A stretch of 64,000 bases of DNA, from assembly GCA_903937385.1 (NCBI GenBank), contig CAIZZF010000008.1, positions 62,001 to 126,000 on the forward strand, read 5' to 3'. This document shows, one piece after another, positions 55,844 to 60,883 of this stretch (the first letter of the stretch is position 1; each line of letters opens with the position of its first letter). The stretch comes from an uncultured Holophagaceae bacterium (GTDB lineage Bacteria; Acidobacteriota; Holophagae; Holophagales; Holophagaceae). The position numbers and the translations under genes are program-made. The notes below the pieces were generated by a model. That model ran no database searches. It was not told the DNA's origin and saw only the letters and a program-made list of their open reading frames with translations.

Positions 55844-57130
55844 TCAGGCCTCGGGTTCCCAGGCCAGGAGCCGGGCCTTGAGGTCGGCCATGTCGGCGGC
55901 CAGGGGCTCGGAGACCAGGGGGCGGTCCTGGACGGCGAGAAGGGCCTCGGGCAGCGGCACCTGGATGCCCAGGTCGCGCTCCAGCACTTCGCCGAACTTG
56001 GCGGGGTGGGCCGTGGCCAGGAAGAGCCCCTGCTCGCCGTCCCGCAGGCAGGCCTGCAGGACGCCGCAGGCCACAGCGCCGTGGGGATCTGCGAGGTAGC
56101 CCTGGGCGTAGAGCTCCGCCAGGGTTGCGCAGGTCTCCGCGTCCGTGCGACTGCCCCAGCGCAGGGCGCCGGCCATGGCGTCGTGGTCGCCGCCGAAGAG
56201 GGCGTGGATGCGCTCCCAGTTGCTGGGGGCGCCCACGTCCATGGCGTTGGACACCGTGGCCACGGAGGGCCGCGGCGTGTAGGTGCCGGTCTCGAGGTAC
56301 TCGGGCACCACGCGGTTGGCGTTGGTGGCCACCACGAACTGCGCGATGGGCGCGCCGCAGCGCTGGGCCAGCAGACCCGCGTAGAGATCGCCGAAATTGC
56401 CGCTGGGCACCGAGACCACCAGCGGTGCGGGGTTCTTGATCTGGGCCGCGGCCTCGAAGTAGTAGAGCGTCTGGGCCAGGAGCCGCGCGATGTTGATGCT
56501 GTTGGCCGAAGTGAGGCCCAGCTGCACGACCAGTTCCTTGTCCTCGAAGGCGGCCTTCACCAGGCGCTGACAGTCGTCGAAGGCGCCCTCGACGGCCAGG
56601 GCCAGCACGTTGCCGCCGCAGGTGGCGAACTGGCGCTCCTGCAGGGGCGAGACCCGGCCCTTGGGATAGAGCACCACCACCTGCACGCCGGGGAGGCCCC
56701 AGAAGGCCTGAGCCACAGCGGCGCCGGTATCACCCGAGGTGGCGGTCAGCACGGTGCAGCGGGCGCCGGTGCTGGCATAGGCCATCACCTGGGCCAGGAA
56801 GCGCGCGCCGAAGTCCTTGAAGGCCAGGGTCGGCCCGTGCCACAGCTCCAAGGCCGCGAGCCGGTCCGTCACGGGCACCACGGGCGCGGGGAAGGTGAAG
56901 GTCCGCCGCACCAGGGCGTCCAGCTCGGGGCGCGGAATCTCGCTGCCGATGAAGCGGTGCAGGATCTCCGCAGAGCGCACCTGGAAGTCCGTGGCCAGCA
57001 ACTCCGCCATGTCGGTGAAACGCGGGATCTCCGTGGGGATGTAGAGCCCGCCATCCGGCGCGAGGCCCGCCTGGACCGCGCCCAGAAAGCTGTTCTCGAG
57101 AGAGGGATTGCGCGTGCTGACGAGCTGCAT
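55844..57130 (-). CDS. thrC: Threonine synthase
   Basis: 428 residues; O-phosphohomoserine to threonine, PLP-dependent. Motifs: QLVSTRNPSLENSFLGAVQAGLAPDGGLYIP at the N-terminus, LWHGPTLAFKDFGARFLAQVMAY (PLP Lys), ATSGDTGAAVAQAFWG, SGNFGDLYAGLLAQR. It is the last gene of thrLABC, 38 bp after thrB. Shorter E. coli-type class. Confidence 0.96.
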   Translation of the reverse strand: MQLVSTRNPSLENSFLGAVQAGLAPDGGLYIPTEIPRFTDMAELLATDFQVRSAEILHRFIGSEIPRPELDALVRRTFTFPAPVVPVTDRLAALELWHGPTLAFKDFGARFLAQVMAYASTGARCTVLTATSGDTGAAVAQAFWGLPGVQVVVLYPKGRVSPLQERQFATCGGNVLALAVEGAFDDCQRLVKAAFEDKELVVQLGLTSANSINIARLLAQTLYYFEAAAQIKNPAPLVVSVPSGNFGDLYAGLLAQRCGAPIAQFVVATNANRVVPEYLETGTYTPRPSVATVSNAMDVGAPSNWERIHALFGGDHDAMAGALRWGSRTDAETCATLAELYAQGYLADPHGAVACGVLQACLRDGEQGLFLATAHPAKFGEVLERDLGIQVPLPEALLAVQDRPLVSEPLAADMADLKARLLAWEPEA

Positions 57131-57168: not shown

Positions 57169-58179
57169 TTATTGTTTAGTTCCAAACGTGAACGACTCAG
57201 AAGCCAGGATGCGGGCGCCGTTGGGATCGAGGGCGCAGAGCCAGCCCTGGCTGGCGAGGCCGACGGCGCTGAAGGCGTCGCGGATCCCGCGGAGGATCTG
57301 GCTGGCCTGGGCTTCATGCTCCGCGACGGCGAACACCGACGGGCCCGAACCGGACAGGCTGCAGCCCAGGGCCCCGGCGGCCAGAGCGGCAGCCTGGGCA
57401 GCGCGGAAGCCGGGCACCAGCGGGGCGCGGTGGACCTCGACCAGGGGGTCGCGCAGGCAGCGCGCCAGCAGAGAGCGATCGCCGGTATGGAGAGCGTGCA
57501 CCAGCCCCGCCAGGTTGCCCGCGAAGTCGAGGGTGGCGTGCCACTCGGGCCGCTCGGGCAGCGCCTTGCGGCTGTCGGCGGTGGAGAGCTGCACATCCGG
57601 GTGGACAACCACCAGCAGCAGGTCTGCGGGCCAGGGGAGGCGGCGCGTGGCGGGCTTGCCACCGCGACCCGGCACCACCACCTGCAGGCCGCCCAGCAGG
57701 GACGGCACCACGTTGTCCAGGTGGACGCCGCCGCTGGTGAGACCCTCGGTGCGACCCGTCAGCTCCACCAGCTCGGCAATCTCCAGCGGATCGCCGTAGA
57801 GGGCCTGGAGGGCGGCGATGGCGGCCACGATGGAGCTGGCGCTGGAGCCCAGGCCGCTGGCCACAGGCAGGCGCTTCTCCAGGGTGATGGCAAGGGGTCC
57901 CACCTCACCGCCGTGAGCCACCAGGGCCTCGCGGAAGAGGTCCCGGGCGCGCTCGGCGAGGTTGGGCCGGGTGTCCCCGGCGAGGGCCGCAGCATACGCA
58001 CCCACCATGCGAAAGCTGTCCTGGGCGGCGGGGGCGACGTGGACCAGGTCCCCGAGGAGGCTGCCATCCAGGGGCGCCAGGGCCGCGCCCAGCAGGTCGA
58101 AGCCGGCGGCGACGTTACCGATGCTCGCGGGGGCGTAGGCCACCACACCCGCAGGCGGGAGGTCGGCGTAGGCCAGCAT
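57169..58179 (-). CDS. thrB: Homoserine kinase
   Basis: 336 residues of the GHMP kinase family. Motifs: VVAYAPASIGNVAAGFDLLGAAL, RLPVASGLGSSASSIVAAIAALQALYG (ATP loop) and the C-terminal GALGCSLSGSGPSVFAVAEHEAQA. Its ATG shares one base with the thrA stop (TGATG), so translation is coupled. Phosphorylates homoserine for thrC. Confidence 0.96.
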   Translation of the reverse strand: MLAYADLPPAGVVAYAPASIGNVAAGFDLLGAALAPLDGSLLGDLVHVAPAAQDSFRMVGAYAAALAGDTRPNLAERARDLFREALVAHGGEVGPLAITLEKRLPVASGLGSSASSIVAAIAALQALYGDPLEIAELVELTGRTEGLTSGGVHLDNVVPSLLGGLQVVVPGRGGKPATRRLPWPADLLLVVVHPDVQLSTADSRKALPERPEWHATLDFAGNLAGLVHALHTGDRSLLARCLRDPLVEVHRAPLVPGFRAAQAAALAAGALGCSLSGSGPSVFAVAEHEAQASQILRGIRDAFSAVGLASQGWLCALDPNGARILASESFTFGTKQ

Positions 58180-60656
58180 CAGTGCCTCCTCGCGGGACGG
58201 GCGCCGGGGGGCACCAGCCGCAGCACATCCGCCAGCACGCCAGCGGCGGTCACCTCAGCCCCCGCCCCGTAGCCGCGGATCACCATGGGATGGGGCTGGT
58301 AGCGCTCCGTGAGCAGGGCCAGGGCGTTCTCGCCGCCCTTGATGGCGGTGAAGGGGTGGTCGGCAGCCACGGCCAGCAGGCCCACGCGACAGCCGCTGTC
58401 CGAGAGGCTACCCACGTAGCGCAGGGTCTTGCCCTCGGCCTTGAGGGCCGCGAGGCGCAGCCGGAAGGTCTCATCCAGGCTGGGCAGGCGGTCCATGAAC
58501 GAGGGGATGTCGCCGGTGGCGTCGAAGTCCGCGGGCAGCAGGCCCTCCACCACCACGTCCGCCAGCTCCAGCTCCATGCCGCACTCCCGGGCCAGGATGA
58601 TGAGCTTGCGGGCCACGTCCATGCCGCTCAGGTCGTCCCGGGGATCGGGCTCGGTGAAGCCGCTCTCCTTGGCGGAGCGCACGGCCTCGGACAGTGGCAC
58701 GCCATCGCCCAGCAGGCCCAGGATGTAGGACATGGAGCCGGACAGGATGCCCTCGCCTCGCAGGACACGGTCACCGGTCAGCACCAGATTCTTCACGGTG
58801 TCGATGATGGGCAGGCCCGCGCCGACGTTGGCTTCGTAGAGGAAGCGCAGCCCCCGCCGGGTGGAGCGCTTGCGCAGCTCGCGGTAGGACTCCTGGGTGC
58901 CGCTGTTGGCCTTCTTGTTGGCCGTGACCACGTGGAACCCGGCGTCGAACAGCTCGACGTAGCGGGCGGCGAGGTCGCCGCTCGTGGTGCAGTCCACCAG
59001 CACCGGCAGGGCCGGCGGTCCGTTCCGCACGGTGTCGAGCAGCTGGTCGAGGTTCATGGGACCGGCCTTGGGCAGGTCCTCCCGCCAGCGGGCGAGGTCG
59101 AGGCCCTTGGGGTCCGTGAGCATGAAGCGGCTGGTGGCAATGGTCACCACGCGAAGATCCAGGCCCTGGGCCGCCAGCTGGTCATGCTGCCGCTGGATCT
59201 GGCCCAGCAGGCTGCCGCCGACGTTGCCCGCGCCGAGCAGGTGGAGGTCCACCACCACCTTGGCCTGGAAGAAGCGGCGGTGGATGTGGACCATGGCGCG
59301 GGCGCCGTCGCGCTCGTCCACCACGGCTGAGATGATGCGCTCACTGGCGCCCTGGGCGATGGCCACCACGTTGCAGCCCACTTCCGCCAAGGCATCGAAG
59401 AAGGTGCCGGCGACCCCGGCCCGGGTGCGCATGCCGTCCCCGACGATGCTGAGCACTGCCAGGCCCCGGCGCAGGTCCACGGGATCAAGGAAGCCCGCGG
59501 CCAGCTCGCTGGGGAAGGCCTCCTGGATGGCCGCCACGGCGCCTGGACCCTCAGCCCGGCGGACGGCGAAGCAGATGGAGAGCTCGGAGGAGCTCTGGGT
59601 GATGAGCACCGCAGAGATGCCCTTCCGGGCCAAGGCGCTGAACACGCGGCCCGCGATGCCGGGCGTGCCGGGCATGCCGGGGCCCGTGAGGTTCACCACG
59701 GAGAGGTCGCCCAGGAAGGACAGCCCGCGCACGCCGCTGGGCGGGGGTGGCACGTCTTCGCGGATGATGGTGCCCGGGTGGGCGGGATCGAAGCTGCTGC
59801 ACACCCGCACCGGGATGCCCCGCTCCCGCACCGGCGGGATGGTCTTGGGATGCAGGACCTTGGCCCCGAAGAAGGAGAGCTCCATGGCCTCCTCGAAGCT
59901 GGCCTCCGGCAGCGGGAAGGCCTCGGGCACCAGGCCGGGATCGGCGCTGTAGAGTCCCGCCACGTCCGTCCAGATCTCCAGCAGGTCCGCGCCGAAGGCT
60001 GCGGCGGCCAGGGCCGCGCTGTGGTCCGAGCCGCCCCGGCCCAGGGAGAGGATCCGGCCGTGGCTGTCGCCGCCGAAGAAGCCAGGCAGAACCCAGAGCC
60101 CATCCGGTCCCGCCTTGACCGGTGCAAAGGCCTCATCAATGGCCGCCATCACCGGCCGGGCCTGGAGGGGGTCGCCCTCCACCCGGATGTAGGTCACGGG
60201 ATCCAGGTAGCTCGGGGCCAGGCCTCGGGCCCGCAGCAGGCCCATGAGGATGGCGCAGGAGGCGCGCTCGCCGAGGCTCGACACCTGGGCCAGCACCGAG
60301 GGCGGCCCCTCTTCCAGCAGCGCCATGCCATGCAGCAGGCGGCGGCCCAGGGTCTCCAGGGCCGCCAGCTCCTCGCGGACCCCGACCGCTTCGGGACCAA
60401 GATCAGCGGCCATGGCCTCCACCACCTCGGTGTGCCGCTCCCGGTAGGTCTCCAGCAGGCGGTCCGCCTCCTCGCGGTTGGGCACCCGGCCGCCGTGCAG
60501 CAGCAGGTTGGTGATGCCCGACATGGCCGAAGCCACGACACAGACGCGATGGGTGGTCCGGGCGGCGGCGGCGAGCTCGACGGCGGCCCGCAAACGGACG
60601 GCACCGCCGAGGCTGGTGCCGCCGAATTTCATGACACGAATGGCGCTGGGCTGCAT
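58179..60656 (-). CDS. thrA: Bifunctional aspartate kinase / homoserine dehydrogenase
   Basis: 825 residues, same layout as E. coli ThrA: aspartate kinase (about 1-290, [51 protein letters not shown]), two ACT-like regulatory regions (about 310-450) and homoserine dehydrogenase (about 460-825, [65 protein letters not shown]). CGGAG precedes the ATG. It is the first structural gene of an operon with a Thr/Ile leader and attenuator, and its product should also be open to allosteric control via the ACT regions. Confidence 0.97.
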
Positions 60657-60680: not shown

Positions 60681-60708
60681 AAAAAGCCCCGCGGGGTAAC
60701 CGCGGGGC
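60681..60708 (-). terminator. Attenuator terminator of thrABC
   Basis: On the minus strand, arms GCCCCGCGG (60708-60700) and CCGCGGGGC (60694-60686) with a 5-nt loop and five T form a strong terminator 24 bp before thrA. The 3' arm is identical, 9 of 9, to leader segment 60746-60738, which can therefore pair with the 5' arm and act as antiterminator. Confidence 0.85.
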
Positions 60709-60731
60709 CGAGTCTGAAAGGTGGAATCAGG

Positions 60732-60842
60732 TCAGGCGCCCCGCGGGATGGCGAGCGTAATATTAGTCGTGGTGGTCAGCGTGGACAGTCCCCGGCCGCC
60801 AGCGGTGAGCCGCGGCGTGCAGGAGGAGCCTTCCACCGACAT
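60732..60842 (-). CDS. thrL: Thr/Ile leader peptide of the thr attenuator
   Basis: A 36-codon ORF (ATG 60842, TGA 60732) whose residues 21-32 read TLTTTTNITLAI: six Thr and two Ile in twelve, as in E. coli thrL. Starts at ATG 60848 or 60854 are also in frame. The antiterminator segment 60746-60738 lies right at the end of this peptide, so ribosome position on the Thr/Ile codons decides which stem forms. The start lacks a clear ribosome-binding site and may be near the 5' end of the transcript. Confidence 0.8.
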   Translation of the reverse strand: MSVEGSSCTPRLTAGGRGLSTLTTTTNITLAIPRGA

Positions 60843-60852
60843 GTGCATGTCC

Positions 60853-60883
60853 ATTATTTTCAAGCATGCGTTGAAAAAGTCAA
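60853..60883 (-). promoter_or_regulatory. Candidate thr operon promoter
   Basis: TTGACT (60883-60878, minus) and AATAAT (60858-60853) with a 19-bp spacer, just upstream of the leader ORF. The spacer is longer than ideal. Confidence 0.4.

Follow-up and report, generated by a model that had tools for sequence, protein, structure and literature searches.

The thrABC operon lies on the minus strand of the window, the whole stretch of 64,000 nucleotides that we analysed, and is preceded by a promoter, a short leader open reading frame and an intrinsic terminator (Table 1). The fused aspartate kinase–homoserine dehydrogenase I encoded by thrA is followed by thrB and then by thrC, which is the arrangement that defines an E. 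coli-type operon. The fusion and the gene order had been proposed in a first-pass annotation of this DNA, and both are borne out, the ThrA match exceeding the cut-off of its family model. The gene on the other side of the leader region is divergent from thrA, so the terminator can act solely on the thr leader RNA. That it is instead a read-through terminator of the upstream gene was ruled out by the same orientation.

Table 1. Coordinates of the thrABC genes and of the leader elements (positions in the window).
Feature	Position	Strand	Remarks
thrC, threonine synthase	55844..57130	-	TIGR00260
thrB, homoserine kinase	57169..58179	-	TIGR00191 and NF002288
thrA, fused aspartate kinase-homoserine dehydrogenase I	58179..60656	-	NF006959, 933.5 bits (cut-off 726)
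Ribosome site of thrA, GGAG	60666-60663	-	placed 3' of the terminator
Intrinsic terminator	60681..60709	-	stem 60709-60685, U tract 60685-60681; dG -21.7
Segment 4, terminator 3' arm CCGCGGGGC	60694-60686	-	
Segment 3, GCCCCGCGG	60700..60708	-	common to antiterminator and terminator
Small inner stem CTGA/TCAG	60714..60730	-	within the antiterminator loop
Segment 2, antiterminator 5' arm CCGCGGGGC	60738..60746	-	in the last leader codons
Leader ORF MHMSVEGSSCTPRLTAGGRGLSTLTTTTNITLAIPRGA	60732..60848	-	38 codons; ATG 60848, stop TGA 60734-60732; probably leaderless
Regulatory Thr/Ile codons TLTTTTNITLAI	60747..60782	-	Thr run within the leader ORF
Promoter	60856..60883	-	-35 TTGACT 60883-60878, 16-nt spacer, -10-like GAAAAT 60861-60856

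The promoter is the single sigma-70-like match in the region, shuffled sequences giving 0.0. The leader ORF had been recognized earlier; it is present on the minus strand and contains a run of threonine codons, and relatives share a start codon two codons upstream of the one assigned at first (60842). Across the six frames of the window, 128,000 codons in all, there are 3 runs of four threonine codons. The terminator reads GGCCCCGCGG-TTACC-CCGCGGGGCT followed by TTTT, and begins 25 nt past the leader stop codon; no other terminator-like site occurs within 500 nt, a length in which shuffles give 0.2. Its 3' arm is identical to segment 2 over 9 nt (10 nt counting the preceding C), and segment 2 is able to pair with the terminator 5' arm, segment 3, in a duplex with a dG of -23.3 that 1.3% of shuffles equal. 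Our analysis confirms the first-pass proposal of a terminator and an exact 9-nt copy of its arm that yield mutually exclusive stems, with both elements found at or very near the positions initially described. We could identify no clear protector (1:2) hairpin. The attenuator elements of the window are real and beyond what chance would produce.

To put this locus in context, we compared the regions upstream of 43 fused thrA genes, 36 from the same genus and 7 from five other genera; these six genera belong to one family of the phylum Acidobacteriota, probably Holophagaceae. An open frame running from ATG to a stop codon beside segment 2 is kept in all 43 loci and spans 34-48 codons. The distance between the first base of TTGAC and the ATG is 35 nt in 33 loci and 36 nt in 9, thereby accounting for the 42 loci with a readable promoter. 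With this fixed spacing, transcription would be expected to start at the ATG or immediately beside it, which suggests that the leader is probably leaderless.

Comparative folding of the leader, which had been put forward as a check, showed segment 2 pairing with segment 3 at each of the 40 loci where a terminator was detected; dG ranges from -14.9 to -27.9, and 32 of these loci reach p < 0.05 against shuffles. In most loci, segment 2 spans roughly positions -13 to -3 relative to the stop codon, where a terminating ribosome would cover it, and the terminator starts ~25 nt after the stop. The arms differ in other genera yet still match each other, as illustrated by L040, with a longer matched helix, and L039, with changed arms. 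Within the genus, the core varies so little that covariation of segments 2 and 3 was not above that of shuffles. Among 20 distinct genus sequences, 93.8% of cells are paired in the inner CTGA/TCAG stem; the corresponding value for the terminator in the genus is 93.5%, with a covariation signal slightly better than that of the 2:3 helix. A sub-clade including L019 and L025 has a mismatch in the 2:3 helix, which is not better than shuffles there. Loss of conservation of the codons or stems in relatives had been named in advance as grounds for giving up the attenuator; the frame is kept in the 43 loci, the arms in the 40 with a detected terminator and threonine in the 30 representatives, and the proposal was not refuted.

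In one sub-clade, three loci (L006-L008) retain the leader and stems but no longer have a U tract behind the terminator (GGGGCCGGTTCATT), which may correspond to decay or to a change to another mode of control.

Of the 20 codons that close the leader, 25.8% encode threonine; the two alternative frames give 5.6% and 0.9%, and ordinary genes, for which seven genes of the window served as the reference, give 5.3%. Since the loci of the family are related, these codon percentages are not independent draws. None of the 30 representatives lacks threonine within the last 20 codons, and its frequency is highest 8-17 codons ahead of the stop. The leader peptides diverge, sharing little except threonine. 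Asparagine and glycine are also frequent in the leaders. Isoleucine, which had been proposed as a second sensed amino acid, reaches 6.2% over the last 20 codons of the leader; ordinary genes have 3.4%, and the leaders of Gammaproteobacteria 20%. Given this weak enrichment of isoleucine, the threonine part of the proposal is solid and the joint threonine/isoleucine designation is partial.

Codon choice in the leaders was also recorded. The isoleucine codons in the last 20 positions of the 30 representatives comprise 24 ATT and 13 ATC, versus 6 ATT and 105 ATC in the seven window genes. The leaders often use ATT (Ile) and AAT (Asn), codons that contribute 5% and 10% to their respective families in those seven genes.

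The leader ORF could alternatively report several amino acids of the aspartate family (Thr, Met, Ile and Asn) and not mainly threonine, an idea that arises because ThrA is the sole route to homoserine. Indeed, seven of the eight fused-gene genomes checked have no homoserine dehydrogenase other than ThrA, so a single operon would feed threonine, isoleucine and methionine, and the last 20 leader codons contain 5.2% methionine and 5.3% asparagine, versus 1.5% and 1.8% in the reference genes, with lysine at 0.3%. However, 11 of the 30 representatives, including the window, have no methionine among these 20 codons, whereas threonine is missing from none, and gammaproteobacterial leaders are similar in methionine and asparagine content (3.9% each) even though E. 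coli possesses a second enzyme, MetL, for methionine. On balance, we regard a sensor of several aspartate-family amino acids as improbable and favor threonine as the main signal.

Three genomes of the same genus that are devoid of the fused gene (G041, G019 and G009) yielded no homoserine dehydrogenase. Matches to thrB were weak at most in G041 and G009 and none was found in G019, and G041 yielded no full-score IlvB or LeuA match. Going by this gene content, the lineage of these three genomes may depend on an external supply of several amino acids. Elsewhere in the family, short ORFs rich in Leu/Ile/Val or His occur in other genera upstream of ilvB (L180 and L182), of a leuA-like gene (L200) and of hisG (L220), and some of them are followed by strong terminators; leader-peptide attenuation may be general there. 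In the genome of the window itself, a terminator (GGCCCCGCACCCCGAGCGGGGCC followed by TTCTTTT) is present ~150 nt before ilvB (L178), with a short ORF between.

The thr locus combines a short threonine-enriched leader ORF, a terminator before the first gene and an antiterminator within reach of the leader ribosome, which are sequence hallmarks of such an attenuator. We conclude that the leader is very probably a ribosome-mediated transcription attenuator of thrABC that senses charged tRNA-Thr. Its geometry fits classical attenuation, and it is from sequence that we infer the transcription start, coupling, stalling and response to threonine. Transcription would begin at or beside the leader ATG, as the promoter spacing indicates, and the leader would be translated immediately. 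When threonine is plentiful, the ribosome reaching the UGA codon would cover segment 2, allowing the 3:4 terminator to fold. Under a shortage of charged tRNA-Thr, the ribosome would stall on the threonine run ~8-17 codons earlier and leave segment 2 free to form the 2:3 antiterminator with segment 3, so that RNA polymerase would continue into thrA. The isoleucine codons, along with the methionine codons present in some relatives, may provide minor inputs.

Two other types of control were considered. A riboswitch or a T-box was rejected, as no Rfam match reached threshold and sub-threshold matches were at chance level. The terminator might also be constitutive, or control might be exerted via translation or Rho, with the threonine-rich ORF being incidental; the loci L006-L008, in which the stems persist in spite of the missing U tract, leave some room for such a scenario. 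Against it, all six genera retain the same combination of open frame, threonine content, arm position and promoter spacing despite divergence of the rest, and we deem this scenario very unlikely. Overall, the predicted attenuation of the family thr operon in the manner of E. coli is well supported and represents a new case of a known class of mechanism.

The putative attenuator in the family shares with the E. coli-type thr attenuator (thrL; RF00506) the operon and its gene order, a threonine-rich leader peptide and competing antiterminator and terminator structures. As in gammaproteobacterial thrL, the antiterminator arm resides in the last codons; in many gammaproteobacterial leaders it occupies positions of roughly -10 to +1 relative to the stop. 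The leader of the family differs from E. coli-type thrL in being probably leaderless, in encoding a longer peptide (34-48 amino acids) and in its weak isoleucine content (6% versus 20%). It yielded no match at the gathering score of the Rfam RF00506 Thr_leader covariance model, a search in which one of 14 control genomes, with E. coli listed first among them, scored above the cut-off.

A leaderless leader-peptide attenuator has been described for S. meliloti trpL (PMC7298713) and S. lividans has leaderless leader peptides for leuL, trpL, ilvL and thrL, the last of which precedes thrS with no clear terminator (PMC8079986). In these leaders the ORF starts at or near the transcription start, as it probably does in the family; they differ in belonging to other phyla and operons. 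Short threonine-rich ORFs are also present upstream of fused thrA in Bacteroidota (L111, L117, L123, L130, L136 and others). Several of the threonine-rich ORFs in L111, L117, L123, L125, L130, L135, L136 and L138 have TTITG-like tails, with TCCCGT after the stop. A strong terminator was not found after most of the Bacteroidota ORFs, and they possibly reflect a different mode of control. The first-pass annotation had emphasized the occurrence of such an operon and attenuator outside Proteobacteria: a putative threonine attenuator of thrABC is indeed conserved in the 43 loci, but its occurrence is less special than was presumed, in view of the Bacteroidota ORFs and of the leader of Streptomyces lividans thrS (PMC8079986). 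We found no earlier description of the thr attenuator of this family in the partial set of literature that was searched.

Two origins had been envisioned, wide ancestry of this control or transfer of the whole operon, and the phylogeny of ThrA, ThrB and ThrC bears on the choice. All three proteins of the family group with those of Gammaproteobacteria, in trees computed without an outgroup and with supports from a quick search, a grouping that a root on the family's own branch would undo; other Acidobacteriota are set apart and mix with Bacteroidota and others. Two Spirochaetota rows join the family–Gammaproteobacteria group in the ThrA tree, and the L173 row of the ThrC tree is a spurious match that distorts the drawn root. 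Vertical descent of a single Acidobacteriota ThrA clade was rejected (AU p 1.3e-14). A recent transfer from an enterobacterium was likewise discarded, as the family sequences form their own group, with ~45% identity to gammaproteobacterial ThrA. A fused ThrA scored above the curated cut-off in 52 of the 297 genomes of the phylum, and a threonine-rich leader with a terminator was absent before seven fused thrA genes outside the family and before the further distant ones that were readable. One family member (L231, in G055) has separate, adjacent aspartate kinase and homoserine dehydrogenase genes with no threonine leader before them.

Of the two, we favour transfer of the operon, in which the leader may have been included, because the three Thr proteins group with Gammaproteobacteria and because the antiterminator arm sits at nearly the same place in thrL; such a transfer would be old, since it predates the family. 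Whether the leader travelled along is about an even bet. The leader could have arisen independently in the family after an older operon transfer, converging with gammaproteobacterial thrL, and we see the chances of this as evenly balanced: the leader has no match to the Rfam Thr_leader model, its start is probably leaderless and no peptide similarity was seen beyond threonine, whereas all three proteins of the pathway share the gammaproteobacterial affinity and segment 2 lies near the same spot before the stop in the family and in many gammaproteobacterial leaders. More tentatively, and with the chances somewhat against it, thrABC and its attenuator may have moved as a unit long ago between a gammaproteobacterial line and the family, with the antiterminator-at-stop arrangement kept, the leader becoming leaderless and the peptide being rewritten.

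In 2010, almost no predicted attenuator of Acidobacteria had an associated function (PMC2965389). Our findings provide one predicted attenuator of this phylum with a concrete putative sensor, signal and mechanism, conserved in the family. They also make the thr attenuator a test case for an RNA attenuator travelling with its operon between phyla; if the unit transfer proved true, an RNA control circuit would have been transferred and kept working across phyla.
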